DNA from: Pyrobaculum sp.
GTDB lineage: Archaea; Thermoproteota; Thermoprotei; Thermoproteales; Thermoproteaceae
Assembly: GCA_020833205.1 (NCBI GenBank)
Contig: JAJHQT010000004.1
Span: 1 to 22,385, forward strand
DNA: 22,385 bases
Reading direction: 5' to 3'
Each line of letters starts with the position of its first letter. Positions within the stretch are counted from its first letter, which is position 1. Below the pieces are notes generated by a model. That model searched no databases, had not been told where the DNA came from, and worked only from the letters and a program-made list of their open reading frames with translations. This document shows positions 1,568-7,852 of this stretch, one piece after another. Both the position numbers and the translations under genes were made by a program.

Positions 1568-1711
1568 ATGGAACAAGTTGTTATATCTGTTTCTGAGGAG
1601 GAACTGGAGCATTTACGTAGAATCTGCAGAAAATATAACCTAGATTCTCTTGATGACTGTATAAACATGGCGCTTACGCAACTTCTATATGTTTACAAAG
1701 GGCTAGAGTAA
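1568..1711 (+). CDS. Small 47-aa protein, possibly ribbon-helix-helix-like
   Basis: ATG at 1568 opens a 47-codon frame ending in TAA at 1709-1711. The product starts MEQVVISVSEEELEHLRRIC and continues through RKYNLDSLDDCINMALTQLL. A short hydrophobic beta-strand followed by two amphipathic helices, with a turn rich in Asn/Asp/Ser, resembles the ribbon-helix-helix (CopG/VapB) pattern, but this is inference from composition only. A TATAAAT box at the right distance and the lack of any other gene in 1481-1702 support it. Its 3' end overlaps the convergent NurA gene by 9 nt. If it is a DNA-binding protein it could be an autoregulator or an antitoxin-like protein; no toxin partner is adjacent. Confidence 0.5.
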   Translation: MEQVVISVSEEELEHLRRICRKYNLDSLDDCINMALTQLLYVYKGLE

Positions 1712-2446
1712 CTCCCTGGGCTGAGGAGGCGTGTGTAATATACTTGAGATTATGGTCCCAATACTTTTCAAGTATTCTTTACTTATTTTTGCTAAGTGAT
1801 GTGCAAGTCTTAGTCTTATGGGATATCTTCTAAATAATGTACATAAACGTCTTACGTCGATGTGTTTTGGAAACTCGACATAGACTACCCAGTCAGATTT
1901 GAAAAACGTGCCATAAAAACCGCCTAGATCTACTGGAGTAAGGTAGGAGCCTGGCGTCGCTACCGACAATAACCAACTTGCCAGCTCCCTTTCGCCTACC
2001 GCCTTTGCAAACTTCATGAAAACCTCTCTTTTATCCTTCTCTGGGATTCTTGGCCCATATCTGACCAGCCGTGGGTCTTTAGACACACCGACGACCTTCG
2101 CCGTGTTTACATACGGCGTCAACGGCCCGTCGACTAGCACCACGTCGGCGTTTAAAGATTCGGCGAACCAAAGTTCGTTTCTCCGCGCCTCTTGATGTAG
2201 GTCTTCTACTTTTTGTATTATGAACTTACGCCGCACGTCCCTCCCCACAGCCACTATTGACTGAATCAACACGTCGACGGCGCCTATACGCCTCCTGACG
2301 TAGCCTGAATCTACGGCGTAGTAATCCAGATCATCTCTCCCGTCGCAGGGAGTAACCAAGTCTCTTAACTGTTGCGGTATCTCAGCTACGGCTTGGACGT
2401 AGTCTAGTTCTGCAAATTTTAAGATCTCCGACAGTAACTGACGCAT
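1703..2446 (-). CDS. nurA: NurA-domain 5'-3' nuclease
   Basis: This 247-residue protein carries the NurA nuclease signature: Asp46 in YAVDSG, acidic residues in the EDLHQEARRNE helix (residues 81-91), Asp106 in VVLVDGPL, and a C-terminal AHHLA motif (His216/217). In the family these acidic residues bind Mn2+ or Mg2+ and degrade DNA ends 5' to 3', usually with the HerA translocase in resection next to Mre11-Rad50. At 247 residues it is short for NurA. The ATG directly follows the TAG of the upstream gene (TAGATG), so it is the last gene of a three-gene operon with a large P-loop ATPase and an unknown protein, and no HerA, Mre11 or Rad50 gene is in the window. It may work with this ATPase instead of HerA. 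The family assignment rests on motifs read by eye. Confidence 0.75.
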   Translation of the reverse strand: MRQLLSEILKFAELDYVQAVAEIPQQLRDLVTPCDGRDDLDYYAVDSGYVRRRIGAVDVLIQSIVAVGRDVRRKFIIQKVEDLHQEARRNELWFAESLNADVVLVDGPLTPYVNTAKVVGVSKDPRLVRYGPRIPEKDKREVFMKFAKAVGERELASWLLSVATPGSYLTPVDLGGFYGTFFKSDWVVYVEFPKHIDVRRLCTLFRRYPIRLRLAHHLAKISKEYLKSIGTIISSILHTPPQPRELL

Positions 2447-2962
2447 CTAATATACTTCCTCTACTAGTCTTTCGAATATTTTCTTTAATGCCTCGCGGTC
2501 GACATCTCCTATTAAATCCATAAGATGGAGGGGTAGCGAGTCCGACTCTCCGGCGACGTACTGGCTTATTGCGGCAAGAGTCGGGGACCTTCGGTATTTC
2601 CGCCGTTCCGTAATTACTATCTCCTTTAATTTTCTAAATAGGCCGTCTGTGTCGACTCCTCTTCTGTTGAGTATTTCGGACAGCTCTTTCTCAAGAATGC
2701 CCGTCTCCTCGTAGAGAGTCAGAGGTCTCCCTCTTATGTATATCTTGCCTCCTACAATTGCCGCAACTGTCCGTTTTGTGTATTTCCCAATGCCTATAGG
2801 GACGCCGCCGGGTACAGCCCCCGTGGCTATGACAGACCTAAGCTCTTTTCCGCTTAATATAATCGCGTCGAAGAATTGGGGGGCGCCTCTGGCATCTATA
2901 ATTACGTCAAATCCTTCTCTTTCCTCTTCGCCGTTTCTAAGCACGAGGATCTTAAGCGACAT
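2447..2962 (-). CDS. Uncharacterised 171-aa protein between ATPase and NurA
   Basis: I do not recognise this protein. The ATG at 2962 (MSLKILVLRNGEE) is preferred over an upstream frame extension to 3001 because it overlaps the ATPase stop by only 11 nt. Residues 1-85 are strand-rich with many glycines, including ATGAVPGGVPIGIGKYTKRT and a following hydrophobic hairpin (AAIVGGKIYIRG). Residues 95-171 are mostly charged helix ending in REALKKIFERLVEEVY. There is no signal peptide or membrane segment, so it is cytoplasmic. Its position, overlapping the ATPase upstream and abutting NurA downstream, suggests an adaptor or third subunit of one complex. That role is inferred from context only. Confidence 0.8.
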   Translation of the reverse strand: MSLKILVLRNGEEEREGFDVIIDARGAPQFFDAIILSGKELRSVIATGAVPGGVPIGIGKYTKRTVAAIVGGKIYIRGRPLTLYEETGILEKELSEILNRRGVDTDGLFRKLKEIVITERRKYRRSPTLAAISQYVAGESDSLPLHLMDLIGDVDREALKKIFERLVEEVY

Positions 2963-5813
2963 ATCTCTTCTCCACCGCGCCAGCTTTGTACAGCTTCTCA
3001 AGTTCTTCTTCGACTCTGGATCTGTCTAGCCCTGTTTCTTTCGCCAACTCGTCTACGTCAAGGACTGCGCCCCTTCCGCGACGGGCCACCGTCTCTAGCA
3101 ATTTTCTATCTACGTTTAGCCTCGACGCGACTTCGGAGAGCGCTTTGTCTAAGTCTCCAGCTACTCCGAATTTCGTCTCCAGCCACTCGGCCATCACCTT
3201 CTTTATTCTCTCTTGTTCTAGGTGCTTCTCATATCTCTTGGCGATCTCGGCGGCGTGGAGTTTTAAATTTGTCAAGTAGTCCTCCAGCCAAGGCTCTGGG
3301 AGCTCTAGCAGCGTTGCTAGATCGCTCTCTACGTCAAGCCTCATGTTAAGGGCCTTCGCCATGTGTTTAATCTCGGCCCAAATCTTCAACGCCTCGTCAG
3401 CCTTTTGGGCTATCGCCTCTTCTCTCCTTACGTCGCGTTCATCTAGTTTTTCAAGTTGTATAAACTTAGACCTCTGTGGGTATCTTTCTAACACAGTCGA
3501 TATCCTCTTCAGAAGTTTTGCCTTCTCCTCAGCCTCTTTCTCCAACTCTTTTCGTACATCTTCAGATATCTCCTTGATCTCAAACAACCGTAGCAACGCC
3601 TTTCTCAATGCCTTGGCGTATGTCTTTTGGTCTCTAAATGAGGCGTCTAACGAGGCGGTTTCTATCTTTTTTGAGAGCTTTATCAAGCCGAAGGGCGTCT
3701 GCTTCTCCACAGAGACCTCGCTGAGGGCCTCTATCTGTTTAAGAACTTCGGCTAGGTACCGCTTGGCCAAGTCTTCTCGGTATTTGTACAGTCTGTCGCC
3801 CAGGGGAACCACGACGCCTCTAAGCTTCATCAACTCCACCACATCGTCTTCTCTTATCTCCCGCCAGAGGTTAGTGGGGAACAACACGTTGATTAAAGAC
3901 TTAAGCTCCTTTTCATGTATAGCCTCTTCAAAGGCGTTGAGTAAGATCTCCTCAATCTGGCGGTAGGCGCCTAGCCCCTCCACTTCCGACCCCTCGTCTA
4001 AAGCCTCTGCGGCTCTTATCAATGCCGTCTGTTTCTTATCCCTGCCCCTCCTCAGAGCGAGAGTGTAACGTAGTAAGTTCTCTCTAACTTTCTCTCTTCC
4101 TAAGCGAATTGCGTCTACGAACTCCGGCGGCTTCGTCTCTTTCTTTAATATTTTGTCTACTGCGTGGCGGATCAACTCGTGCTTCAACCTCTCGAATTTG
4201 TCTGCGCCGTATATCTGTAAGGTGATGTATCTTGAGGCTGGTTCTCGGTATAATCTCTTCCAGTAGGCAGACATAAGCGGTGCCAGGGCCGATTGTAGAG
4301 TCTCTGTTAATAAGACTTTGCTGGCTACGAATATGTTTACATAATCAACGACGTAGCCGTTTATGGCTCCTCGCGAGATTAAATCCTCGACGTCTTTCAC
4401 CGCTCTTTTCAACTCCTCCTCTCTATCGACGTGAACAAAGACGTAGGCCTCCCGCACCCCCATGTTGTTTTGCCAAATTACATAGCCGCAGCAGAAGCGT
4501 AGACGTATGCCGTCTACGCCAATTACGTGTTCTACCTCCTCTAGAAGGGCCATGGGGTTTTCGAGCCTCTGGCTTATCTCCCTCGCCACGGCCGCCACAG
4601 CCTGGACCTCGTCCCACCCCACCAGCTTGGCCACGTCGTCTGACACCAAATACCTCTTGCCCACTAGGTACTGGTCTAGTTGTAAATCCTCCTCTGTGGC
4701 CATGTAGATGTAAAGCCTTCCCTGCTCTAGCAATGTGAAGTAGAGGTATGGCTCATATGAGAGGTTTTTTGCGTCTTTTAAATCTAGGTCTTTCCCCCTG
4801 ACGACTGCGTATTCTCTGAGGACGCTAAGCGCCTCTTTGTCTTCGTAGGGGACTTTGTAGAGGTACACCTCCTTAGAGTAGGGAGTCTTGTCGACGTACG
4901 GCATCCCTGCAAACGCCCGTTCAAGAACCTCGTCGTCTAGATCTGGGTTTACGCCTTCTTCTCTGAGGAGGTGTGCGAGGCGTTTCCCTTCTTTCTTTAG
5001 CTGGAAAAGCCTCGCGACGAGCTTCATCAAGAGGCGGGGCGCGACTTCGCCTTTTCTCTTGGCGAGGTGGTAAAGCGCGGCGAGTTCATGCAACGTAAAG
5101 GGGCTTAGAGGGTCTATGTCGCCGGATTCTATTTTCGCTATCCTTTCGTGAGAGGAGTAGGCAAGGAGTCTCTGTCTTACGGTTTCTACAAACTGCCAGA
5201 AGGGGAACCGCACGTCTAGGACGATCTCCCGGTAGACTCTGCCGCTGGTTATGTCAAAGACGTCTGGCACCACGTTCTTTAGTATGGTGTAGTACAGGTG
5301 CGGGGTCAATGCTACAATTATCGCTATCTTGTTGAACCTCTCCGCTTCGCCTAATATGTGTCTATAGGAGCGAGGCTCCAGCAGGGCTCTTATGTATGTC
5401 GCAACTCTTTGTATAAGTTTTACAAATCTCTCGTCGCTGAGCGCCCCTAGTCTATGTGCGGCCGCAATACGCGAAATCTCGTCGGCCTCGTCTATCAAAA
5501 CAAGCATCGGCTTATCCCGCTTCTTGGAGGCTATCTCAATGGTGAAGTCGCCTTCTAGAGAGAGGGCGGCTCTGACCACGTCGAAGCCTTCCTCCGCTGC
5601 GTAGACTTCGACCTCGTCGAGCAGTTCGCTTTTCCCCCAGCCGTAGGGCGCCACCACAACGGCCAACACGTTGTTGTTGCCCTCCTTGGCCACCCTTAGG
5701 ACCTCTGCAATTTCCTGTAGCTCTCGCTCAAAGCCCACTGACCTGTGCCGCCTAACTAGATGGGTGACGCCGCTGGGGCTGAAGGGTAAGTCGACAAAGG
5801 CGTACACATACAT
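2952..5813 (-). CDS. Large P-loop (AAA+/STAND-like) ATPase with C-terminal winged helix, NurA-linked
   Basis: From the ATG at 5813 the protein has 953 residues. The Walker A motif APYGWGKS is at residues 55-62 and Walker B MLVLIDEAD at about 103-111; a sensor-like Thr follows in VALTPH near residue 170. The N-terminal segment before the P-loop (GFERELQEIAEVL) resembles Cdc6/STAND-type ATPases. After the ATPase core there are about 500 residues with no recognised domain, then a long charged helical, perhaps coiled-coil, region (roughly 670-860). The last 40 residues (DVDELAKETGLDRSRVEEEL and on) look like a winged helix. A TTG at 5846 would add 11 residues. It heads an operon with the 171-aa protein and NurA, so it probably acts on DNA ends. 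BrxC/DUF499-type ATPases are an alternative family; no close assignment is possible by eye. Confidence 0.85.
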   Translation of the reverse strand: MYVYAFVDLPFSPSGVTHLVRRHRSVGFERELQEIAEVLRVAKEGNNNVLAVVVAPYGWGKSELLDEVEVYAAEEGFDVVRAALSLEGDFTIEIASKKRDKPMLVLIDEADEISRIAAAHRLGALSDERFVKLIQRVATYIRALLEPRSYRHILGEAERFNKIAIIVALTPHLYYTILKNVVPDVFDITSGRVYREIVLDVRFPFWQFVETVRQRLLAYSSHERIAKIESGDIDPLSPFTLHELAALYHLAKRKGEVAPRLLMKLVARLFQLKKEGKRLAHLLREEGVNPDLDDEVLERAFAGMPYVDKTPYSKEVYLYKVPYEDKEALSVLREYAVVRGKDLDLKDAKNLSYEPYLYFTLLEQGRLYIYMATEEDLQLDQYLVGKRYLVSDDVAKLVGWDEVQAVAAVAREISQRLENPMALLEEVEHVIGVDGIRLRFCCGYVIWQNNMGVREAYVFVHVDREEELKRAVKDVEDLISRGAINGYVVDYVNIFVASKVLLTETLQSALAPLMSAYWKRLYREPASRYITLQIYGADKFERLKHELIRHAVDKILKKETKPPEFVDAIRLGREKVRENLLRYTLALRRGRDKKQTALIRAAEALDEGSEVEGLGAYRQIEEILLNAFEEAIHEKELKSLINVLFPTNLWREIREDDVVELMKLRGVVVPLGDRLYKYREDLAKRYLAEVLKQIEALSEVSVEKQTPFGLIKLSKKIETASLDASFRDQKTYAKALRKALLRLFEIKEISEDVRKELEKEAEEKAKLLKRISTVLERYPQRSKFIQLEKLDERDVRREEAIAQKADEALKIWAEIKHMAKALNMRLDVESDLATLLELPEPWLEDYLTNLKLHAAEIAKRYEKHLEQERIKKVMAEWLETKFGVAGDLDKALSEVASRLNVDRKLLETVARRGRGAVLDVDELAKETGLDRSRVEEELEKLYKAGAVEKRYVA

Positions 5814-5897: not shown

Positions 5898-6365
5898 GTG
5901 CTTAGAAGATGTCAGGCGTTAGATGTGGAGGAGATTTACGAAGTTGAGACGAAGTCTTTTAAGCCTGATGATGTCTACAGCATAGAGTTGTTGAAGTTCC
6001 TCTGCGCGTATTGTAATGATCATTCTTATGTCTATGTAGCTGATGGCAAAATTATAGGCTACATCATTACATGTATAGAGGGGGGCGCCGCACATGTTAT
6101 ATCTATCGCCACAGATCCGCAATACAGGAGGCGGGGCGTAGGTAAATCTTTGTTGTGCACAGCACTTAACCTACTAGCCAAGGGAGAGGTCCAAGAGGTC
6201 TTCTTAGAGGTACGGGTGACGAACGAGGCGGCGTTAAGTCTCTATAGAGCCGCTGGGTTTGAACTAGTCGAAATTTTGAGAAACTACTACAGCGACGGCG
6301 AAGACGGATACAGACTAAGACTAAGGGATAGGAAAAGGGCGAAGGAATTTTGCTACAGTAAATAG
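5898..6365 (+). CDS. RimI/Ard1-type N-terminal protein acetyltransferase (GNAT)
   Basis: This 155-residue protein has the GNAT layout. IRR-type strand 1 is seen as LRRCQALDVEEIYEVE, followed by SFKPDDVYS, then the central strands IIGYIITCIEGGAAHVISIA. The acetyl-CoA pyrophosphate loop is QYRRRGVGKSLL (about residues 75-86). The C-terminal NEAALSLYRAAGFELVEILR followed by NYYSDGEDGYRL is typical of RimI and the archaeal Ard1/NatA catalytic subunits, where the Tyr-rich loop shapes the peptide site. It should acetylate the alpha-amino group of nascent or mature proteins. The GTG at 5898 fits the family N-terminus and the TATA spacing. It is divergent from the ATPase-NurA operon. Confidence 0.88.
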   Translation: MLRRCQALDVEEIYEVETKSFKPDDVYSIELLKFLCAYCNDHSYVYVADGKIIGYIITCIEGGAAHVISIATDPQYRRRGVGKSLLCTALNLLAKGEVQEVFLEVRVTNEAALSLYRAAGFELVEILRNYYSDGEDGYRLRLRDRKRAKEFCYSK

Positions 6366-6469
6366 CGGAGCCTAAGGACGAGATAGAGGAGAGGATTTCT
6401 CTGCTTTAGGTAGTACATTTTCGCGTATTCTTCAAGCGCGATTTCCCCGCGGAGATACGCCTTTTCCAC
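6353..6469 (-). CDS. Possible small 38-aa protein
   Basis: A minus-strand frame from GTG (6467-6469) to TAG (6353-6355) encodes 38 residues, including EKAYLRGEIALEEYAKMYYL and NPLLYLVLRLRYLL. The first half looks like a short helical motif (YLRGEIxLEEYA) of the kind seen at the ends of small archaeal proteins; the second half is hydrophobic. An in-frame TAA just upstream rules out a longer protein without a frameshift. It is convergent with the acetyltransferase gene and overlaps its last 13 nt. No good TATA box is visible upstream. It may be a small real gene, a remnant or chance. Confidence 0.3.
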   Translation of the reverse strand: MEKAYLRGEIALEEYAKMYYLKQRNPLLYLVLRLRYLL

Positions 6470-6476
6470 GTCTTAA

Positions 6477-6503
6477 CTCCTGCCTTAAGAGGTACTACAG
6501 GAG
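6477..6503. repeat. Short inverted repeat upstream of the MinD-like gene
   Basis: CTCCTG at 6477-6482 is mirrored by CAGGAG at 6498-6503 with a 15-nt spacer. It lies 23 nt before the GTG at 6526 and could be an operator or a weak hairpin. Six-base arms can occur by chance. Confidence 0.25.
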
Positions 6504-6525
6504 GGTAAAACTCAGGGGTAAAGAT

Positions 6526-7050
6526 GTGGATCTGTGCATAACCAGCGCGGCCAAGGGCGGCACTGGTAAGACCACCTTTGCAGAGATCTTAGCGTACGTC
6601 TGGCGAAAGGCCTTTGGCATATCTGCAGGTGTGGCGAAGCCCTTTAGCAGAGGCGACTTTGAGGCGCGAATTGTGGACTTCCCCGCGTTTCAGCTAACCG
6701 ACAAACTTTATATTAAGAGATTGATCGAGTGCGATGGAGTGGTTTACGTCGTCGACGAGGATCCTGAGACCCTAAACGCCGTAGAGACTCTACACGTAGC
6801 CCTTAGAGATAAGGTTTTTGGAGTTGTACTTAATAAAGTGGTTAAGAAGCCTGGGAAAGAGTTCCTGAGGGCGTATGGCAGATTAGGAAAAGTGTATGTG
6901 GTCCATTTCGACGAACAGATGGCAGTTCACCGAAGCATCGGCGTGCCGCCGTACCGCGTCCGTTCGATTGCTACGCTTGAAATGGCGAAGGCTGCGGTGG
7001 GCTTGAAAAGATTCGTCTCAAGCGGCCCTGCGGGCTTAAGAGGTCTATAA
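6526..7050 (+). CDS. Compact MinD/CooC-like P-loop ATPase
   Basis: The 174-residue protein starts with a beta-strand and a deviant Walker A motif, AAKGGTGKTT (residues 8-17), the hallmark of the MinD/ParA/CooC/Mrp group; the signature Lys is Lys10. RIVDFPAF (48-54) corresponds to the Walker B DxPA element and GVVLNKV to the base-recognition strand. It is much shorter than typical family members (about 230-260). After helix 1 the usual VDxDP strand is missing, so the fold seems reduced to the core. CooC-type metal-centre insertion, partitioning or cargo positioning are all possible. GTG at 6526 is chosen because it leaves a complete strand 1; the ATG two bases earlier is out of frame and closes quickly. 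Confidence 0.75.
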   Translation: MDLCITSAAKGGTGKTTFAEILAYVWRKAFGISAGVAKPFSRGDFEARIVDFPAFQLTDKLYIKRLIECDGVVYVVDEDPETLNAVETLHVALRDKVFGVVLNKVVKKPGKEFLRAYGRLGKVYVVHFDEQMAVHRSIGVPPYRVRSIATLEMAKAAVGLKRFVSSGPAGLRGL

Positions 7051-7052
7051 AA

Positions 7053-7060
7053 TTTATTTT
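7053..7060 (+). promoter_or_regulatory. TATA-like element for the phosphoesterase gene
   Basis: An AT-rich tract (AAAATTTATTTT, TATA-like core TTTATTTT) is centred about 22-26 nt upstream of the GTG at 7079, again fitting a leaderless start. It lies just after the stop of the MinD-like gene. Confidence 0.45.
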
Positions 7061-7078
7061 ACAGATGGTAAGTGTGGT

Positions 7079-7852
7079 GTGCACGGTCTTGTGTTGAGCC
7101 TACGCCGGGAGAGACTTCTGCTCCTAGCGGATACGCACGTGGGGTATGAAGTAGAGTTGCGGAGGGTCAAGGGGGTTAACGCCATGAGCCAGACAAGGAA
7201 ACTTGTGGAGAGGGTGTTGGAGCTGGCTGACCTGCATAACGTCACTGCAGTGGTGATTCTGGGCGACGTTAAACATGAGTTGCCCGTGCCTCGGGAGAGC
7301 GTCGATGAGGTGAGGACTTTTCTAACCACTGTGGCGAAAAAGGTGCCCCTACTCCTCATCCCGGGCAACCACGACTCACTTCTCCAGGAGATCGCCAGTG
7401 GGATAGACGGCGTCGAGGTGGCGCCGACCCGCGGCATCCTTATTGACAAGTTTCTACTTGTGCATGGACATGTAAAACCCGCGAAACAAGACTTGGAAAA
7501 GGCAGACACGTTAATTATGGGGCATACTCACCCCGCTGTCCTCATAAGAGACGATATAGGCTACGCCGTGAAGGAGCCGGCAGTGCTTAAGATAAAGACC
7601 TCAAGGACTAAGCTCTGCAAGGCCCTATACGGCGAGCCGTGTAAAAGACGGACACGGCTCAAAATCGTAGTGCTACCGGCCTCTCACCCTCTCATAACCG
7701 GCGTCGACGTCCGCGAAATTCCTCAAATGGCCTCGGAGGGACGCACCTTGCTTAGGTATATAGAGTGGAAACCTGAAGACGTAGAGGTGTATCTCGTGGA
7801 CATGACGTTTCTCGGGACGTTGGCAGATCTACAGTTCGCATTTCTTCCATAG
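7079..7852 (+). CDS. Calcineurin-like metallophosphoesterase
   Basis: This 257-residue protein has all five metallophosphoesterase motifs in order: ADTHVG (Asp18, His20), LGDVKH (Asp63), PGNHD (Asn97, His98), VHGH (His129) and MGHTHP (His149, His151). It therefore should bind two metal ions and cleave phosphodiester or phosphomonoester bonds. The arrangement, with VILGDVKHE and a C-terminal region after GHTHP, is like the archaeal ICC/PdeM-type phosphoesterases, some of which sit beside DNA-repair helicases or ligases in other genomes. No such partner is next to it here. The GTG at 7079 is selected by the TATA spacing and a good family N-terminus; nearby ATG/GTG codons are out of frame. Its substrate is unknown. 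Confidence 0.87.
   Translation: MHGLVLSLRRERLLLLADTHVGYEVELRRVKGVNAMSQTRKLVERVLELADLHNVTAVVILGDVKHELPVPRESVDEVRTFLTTVAKKVPLLLIPGNHDSLLQEIASGIDGVEVAPTRGILIDKFLLVHGHVKPAKQDLEKADTLIMGHTHPAVLIRDDIGYAVKEPAVLKIKTSRTKLCKALYGEPCKRRTRLKIVVLPASHPLITGVDVREIPQMASEGRTLLRYIEWKPEDVEVYLVDMTFLGTLADLQFAFLP

Follow-up and report, generated by a model that had tools for sequence, protein, structure and literature searches.

A NurA-family nuclease is encoded together with a predicted AAA+ ATPase and a small middle protein in Pyrobaculum-like DNA, and this combination of nuclease and motor is real, conserved and apparently undescribed. The DNA analysed here, 22,385 nucleotides of contig JAJHQT010000004.1 from a Pyrobaculum sp. 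(the window), appears to be archaeal chromosomal DNA, and the three genes, which we call the trio, lie next to one another on its minus strand (Table 1). Whether the trio encodes one host DNA-processing machine, the reading that we prefer, is an evenly balanced question. An original prediction, made from the letters of this DNA, had proposed three overlapping or abutting genes, and both junctions can be read in the DNA; its suggestion of fixed stoichiometry is not one that overlapping genes imply. It had also called the system undescribed, and our literature search, largely confined to papers outside subscription, found no paper on the operon. The accessible parts of PMC9905601, PMC12977600, PMC9960219 and PMC9258230 held no description of it, and the nearest paper, as far as its accessible part goes, concerns nurA-herA pairs in Pyrobaculum (PMC3396285).

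Conservation of the trio

An ATPase profile matched 41 of 81 genomes of one class, and in 38 of these 41 the ATPase, middle and NurA genes stand in that order on a single strand, as judged with profiles iterated on open reading frames from the ATPase loci themselves. Because the order is kept in 38 of 41, the adjacency is not chance, and the three genes are conserved together as had been expected. The middle protein is present in 39 of the 81 genomes, all 39 of which have the ATPase; its alignment (A7) includes rows from the ATPase loci themselves. Where unbroken, the ATPase is single-copy, and it occurs in nearly all genomes of a clade of hot-spring archaea that we delimited from table order and topoisomerase identity. 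Four genomes without the ATPase fall amid the ATPase-bearing stretch of the table (G047, G062, G076 and G080); topoisomerase VI-B is likewise missing from two of them and is fragmented in a third.

Thirty-three of the 38 ordered trios have open frames, including one whose ATPase is cut by a contig end (G002), and five have frames in several pieces (G052, G056, G057, G060 and G061). We rejected a pseudogene reading of these five broken ATPases: all five genomes have a fragmented topoisomerase VI-B as well, so the breaks are likely assembly errors. Loci L058, L062, L063, L065 and L066 have broken frames in both genes.

The ATPase matches proteins from Pyrobaculum sp. WP30 (81%), a Pyrobaculum metagenome-assembled genome (94%, residues 227-953), P. 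oguniense (67%; Pogu_0218) and Thermoproteus sp. AZ2 (46%). A search across the phylum, in which at most two candidates were scored per genome, gave matches in 46 of 398, seven of them being short, weak and to the coiled-coil or C-terminal region, and it leaves room for distant relatives elsewhere; the protein search scored 7995 candidates only. After near-duplicates and fragments were dropped, the alignments held 27 of 36 ATPase matches (A1), 26 of 28 NurA matches (A2) and 14 of 18 middle-protein matches (A3).

The ATPase and the middle protein

The ATPase is predicted to be an AAA+ protein and not a member of the HerA/FtsK group. Its structural model has an ORC/Cdc6-like AAA+ fold at the N terminus, in keeping with the idea that its motor class differs from that of HerA, and the Walker A motif varies among 22 aligned rows only as A/G, P/E/Q and W/Y/F. 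The Pfam scan gave it no DUF87 (HerA) match, and its profile met six HerA-like proteins, a set without the 600-residue HerA, at 12% and over the P-loop only. The winged helix proposed for its C terminus agrees with weak Pfam matches below cut-off and with the helix pattern of the model. A start at TTG 5846 would extend the protein to 964 residues.

Neither the ATPase nor the middle protein matched any Pfam or NCBIfam model above its cut-off. For the ATPase, PF10923 reached 18.9 bits, below its cut-off of 22.2, and neither the DUF499/BrxC families PF04465 and PF19557 nor Cdc6_C (PF09079) was listed at E values up to 1; the Cdc6_C model does match in 11 of 11 archaeal genomes, and our Cdc6 control set covers 8 of 14 loci. 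In a profile comparison the ATPase does match DUF499 ATPases. The search with DUF6079 (BrxC) matched nothing anywhere, controls included, and is uninformative. The middle protein, to which no family could be assigned, has a beta-rich N-terminal half and a helical C-terminal half, and may act as an adaptor between ATPase and NurA.

A short NurA beside an AAA+ motor

The 247-residue product is indeed NurA, scoring 39.3 bits against PF09376 (cut-off 21); relatives lie on both sides of that cut-off (20.5 bits for the L061 copy, just under it, and 60.7 for the L051 copy). It is shorter than other aligned NurAs, lacking a long internal stretch that they share. The columns of D46, E91, D106 and K123 are common to the other NurAs of its relatives, and the last conserved position is a histidine in the aligned Pyrobaculum and Thermoproteus trio copies and an aspartate in the other six; the two other NurA types likewise have H or D there. 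We take these five columns to be the catalytic residues. The first aspartate matches, by motif, active-site residue D49 of T. kodakarensis NurA in the accessible part of PMC12977600. Because no PDB sequence matched either the HerA-linked NurA of L006 or the trio NurA profile, we placed the residues by aligning related proteins and not on a structure.

As predicted, no HerA (DUF87), Mre11 or Rad50 was found above Pfam cut-offs among the 17 window proteins scanned, so that this NurA stands without a HerA partner and beside an AAA+ ATPase. Each of 18 genomes searched with Pfam has at least two NurA matches, and the search recognised the trio copy in 14 of the 17 genomes that have one. P. oguniense has four matches, the fourth within the trio; Table A2 of PMC3396285, a paper accessible in part, gives three NurA genes for this species. 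Separate herA-nurA pairs, whose existence had been left to be checked, do occur in several of the relatives examined: HerA-like genes adjoin 13 of the 20 other NurA loci fetched (8 of 11 of the long type, 5 of 9 of the short). Our HerA sets were built from the shorter of the HerA-like paralogues, and failure to see HerA at the remaining seven is therefore no proof of absence. In genomes with herA beside another NurA, the AAA+ motor is thus an addition to HerA and not a substitute.

Inheritance and genomic setting

Distances in the ATPase tree track those of topoisomerase VI-B (r 0.93, reached by 0 of 999 permutations; 24 genomes), and the trio looks vertically inherited, like a housekeeping gene. 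The comparison used 24 of the 26 genomes with both proteins, excluding G001 (NurA not entered) and G049 (no partners), and was made without G041-G046, for which no topoisomerase locus was fetched, and without broken or partial copies. Housekeeping genes surround the trio in the window and include those for the primase large subunit, AGOG glycosylase and topoisomerase VI. Flanking genes are alike in Pyrobaculum and Thermoproteus loci and differ between the more distant loci listed.

The antiviral alternative in the original prediction sits poorly with this setting. It would have a BrxC-like ATPase scan DNA while the middle protein and NurA destroy what is foreign, as proposed for BREX-related ATPases with effectors, and it draws on the BrxC/DUF499-like layout, the profile link to DUF499 ATPases, the fast evolution of the trio (given below), weak hits that the ATPase gets in PADLOC (SngB, E 0.0014, for example) and a recent proposal that HerA-NurA may act against viruses (PMC12977600, in its accessible part). 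Against it stand single-copy presence almost throughout the clade, inheritance like that of topoisomerase VI-B, constant flanks in Pyrobaculum and Thermoproteus, and the lack of any methylase, PglZ or helicase partner among the Pfam-scanned window proteins. PADLOC gave no match for NurA or the middle protein, PHROGs none for any trio protein, and no relative turned up in viral contigs scanned with ATPase and NurA queries or in plasmids searched with the ATPase. We consider a defence system unlikely.

The ATPase and the OB-fold single-strand binding protein (SSB) were not matched together in any genome of the class. The SSB (PF21473) was matched in 29 of the 81 genomes, in none of the 41 with the ATPase and in 29 of the 40 without; 11 genomes have neither. 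This exclusion may reflect one evolutionary event on a single branch, so the pattern is a correlation only and its Fisher value is no independent evidence. An OB-fold SSB seems to be missing from most Thermoproteales, which use ThermoDBP (PMC8998557), and NurA is inhibited by SSB in Saccharolobus (PMC8910471).

A convergent small gene and other neighbours

A conserved 47-residue protein is encoded on the opposite strand, converging on NurA. Of the 41 ATPase-bearing genomes, 20 have a relative of it close to the ATPase or NurA, including two in which NurA is not at the locus (G048 and G049); the loci fetched from G070 and from genomes taken to be Vulcanisaeta-like and Caldivirga-like gave none. 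Changes among nine copies (36 pairs) fall mostly at third codon positions, with nonsynonymous divergence (dN) of 0.07-0.39 and synonymous divergence (dS) of at least 0.96 or not computable, and all 19 rows of the alignment keep two cysteines. Its sequence suggests a ribbon-helix-helix (RHH) protein, for which Pfam gave no confirmation (one of six copies matched RHH_9, at 13.3 bits against a cut-off of 23.4), and it is a possible regulator.

Upstream of the trio, genes for a RimI-like acetyltransferase, a ParA-like ATPase and an archaeal SbcD-related phosphoesterase follow in a row on the plus strand (5898-7852), and loci L003, L004 and L078 have a similar block. The phosphoesterase (7079-7852) reaches 108 bits with TIGR00024, below the cut-off of 115.

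Table 1. Coordinates of the trio, its protein domains and the convergent gene in the window
Feature	Position	Strand	Basis
AAA+ ATPase gene, 953 residues	2952-5813	-	Open reading frame from ATG 5813; homologs
AAA+ domain, residues ~29-300	4914-5729	-	ORC/Cdc6-like in predicted model
Walker A APYGWGKS, residues 55-62	5628-5651	-	Kept in 22/22 aligned rows
Walker B LVLIDE, residues 104-109	5487-5504	-	Kept in 22 aligned rows; D108 and E109 invariant
Alpha+beta domain, residues ~310-555	4149-4886	-	Predicted model; boundaries read by eye
Winged-helix-like segment, residues ~594-716	3666-4034	-	Predicted helix-strand pattern, read by eye
Coiled coil, residues ~729-882	3168-3629	-	Predicted long helices
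C-terminal winged helix, residues ~888-950	2964-3152	-	Sub-cut-off Pfam matches and model
ATPase/middle gene overlap, 11 nucleotides	2952-2962	-	DNA reading: ATPase stop TAA (2952-2954) lies past middle ATG at 2962
Middle protein gene, 171 residues	2447-2962	-	Open reading frame
TAGATG junction, middle TAG abutting NurA ATG	2444-2449	-	DNA reading
Short NurA-family nuclease gene, 247 residues	1703-2446	-	Open reading frame and Pfam
NurA conserved columns D46, E91, D106, K123, H216	2309-2311, 2174-2176, 2129-2131, 2078-2080, 1799-1801	-	Alignment
Conserved 47-residue protein gene, overlapping NurA 3' end by 9 nucleotides	1568-1711	+	Open reading frame; not in program-made list

Discussion

In a host DNA-processing machine built from the trio, the BrxC/ORC-like AAA+ ATPase would bind DNA and remodel it or move along it, the middle protein would link the ATPase to NurA, and NurA, which belongs to an RNase H-fold, metal-dependent nuclease family, would cut the strands that the ATPase presents. 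The three proteins would thus form a complex in which the ATPase either moves DNA or loads NurA. Such a machine would act alongside the cell's own herA-nurA pairs and not instead of them, on host DNA, most likely at chromosomal ends or stalled forks, and the alternative resection machine first suggested is possible. It is doubtful that the trio is a third class of NurA machine, in which a dedicated adaptor couples the nuclease to a driving AAA+ ATPase of ORC/BrxC type, and that it became fixed in an archaeal lineage that lost its canonical OB-fold SSB, where it would have taken over DNA-end or gap processing, and the control of it, that elsewhere depend on HerA and SSB.

Several observations weigh against a single host machine. 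Adjacency is not universal: in G072 the ATPase lies ~3.8 kb from the middle-NurA pair on the opposite strand, and in G048 and G049 it has neither gene beside it. Of the 17 genomes with a trio NurA, plain Pfam searching failed to recognise it in three (G050, G055 and G079), meaning that some copies have diverged far from the family. The ATPase and topoisomerase VI-B trees of the 24 genomes agree in only 13 of 21 splits, and the trio evolves at 3.4 to 5.5 times the rate of topoisomerase VI-B, against 2.0 to 3.0 times for HerA and the other NurAs, a difference that conflict might also explain. Neither fold nor conservation shows function, and the complex and its activity are what we infer from them.

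The solo ATPases of G048 and G049 mean that the protein may also work independently, and they favour a view in which it is a chromosome or replication factor with ORC-like or SMC-like behaviour, NurA and the middle protein being optional additions; the predicted ORC/Cdc6-like fold, winged helices and coiled coil would suit such a factor. The middle gene was found nowhere in these two genomes. However, even the most divergent aligned ATPases (G050 and G051; 23-24% identity) sit in a trio, which makes a loss in G048 and G049 just as likely as a late gain of the partners in other genomes, and we regard a chromosome factor with optional partners as quite improbable. At the two solo loci (L055 and L189) the ATPase and the 47-residue gene are kept while the middle gene and NurA are absent beside the ATPase, and an 81-residue protein with paired cysteine motifs adjoins it (L189, 600-845, minus strand; L055, 3612-3854, plus strand). 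Ordinary co-transcription of three unrelated genes under one promoter is very hard to credit: compact archaeal genomes often have genes that overlap, but here the order is constant in 38 of 41 genomes while the flanks differ between more distant loci.

In the literature that we found, NurA has been studied as the partner of HerA, and the trio would show it to be a module with more than one possible drive. The trio is also a concrete candidate for DNA-end handling in an archaeal order without a canonical SSB, and it may link nucleases of repair with the BrxC-like ATPases of defence.

Among known systems, HerA-NurA likewise encodes a NurA-family nuclease beside an ATPase, with the acidic columns kept, and ATP-driven presentation of DNA to NurA is likely in both; the trio differs in its AAA+ (ORC/Cdc6-like) instead of HerA/FtsK motor, its extra middle protein and its shorter NurA. 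The Pyrobaculum nurA-csm6-herA cluster, as far as the accessible part of PMC3396285 describes it, has a NurA paralogue in the same genus, but with herA and csm6 near a CRISPR array. Orc1/Cdc6 proteins share the AAA+ fold and winged-helix modules predicted for the trio ATPase, which is more than twice as long, has a coiled coil and lacks a Cdc6_C match. BrxC/DUF499 ATPases, compared through our model and their published description, have a similar N-terminal ORC/Cdc6-like AAA+ domain, alpha+beta domain and winged helix, with a coiled coil as in BrxC. The BrxC order of AAA+, winged helix-turn-helix, alpha+beta, winged helix-turn-helix and coiled coil resembles that of the model, except that the first winged helix-turn-helix is not seen. 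Unlike those ATPases, that of the trio reaches no curated cut-off of their families, has no methylase, PglZ or helicase genes in view, and has NurA as its partner.

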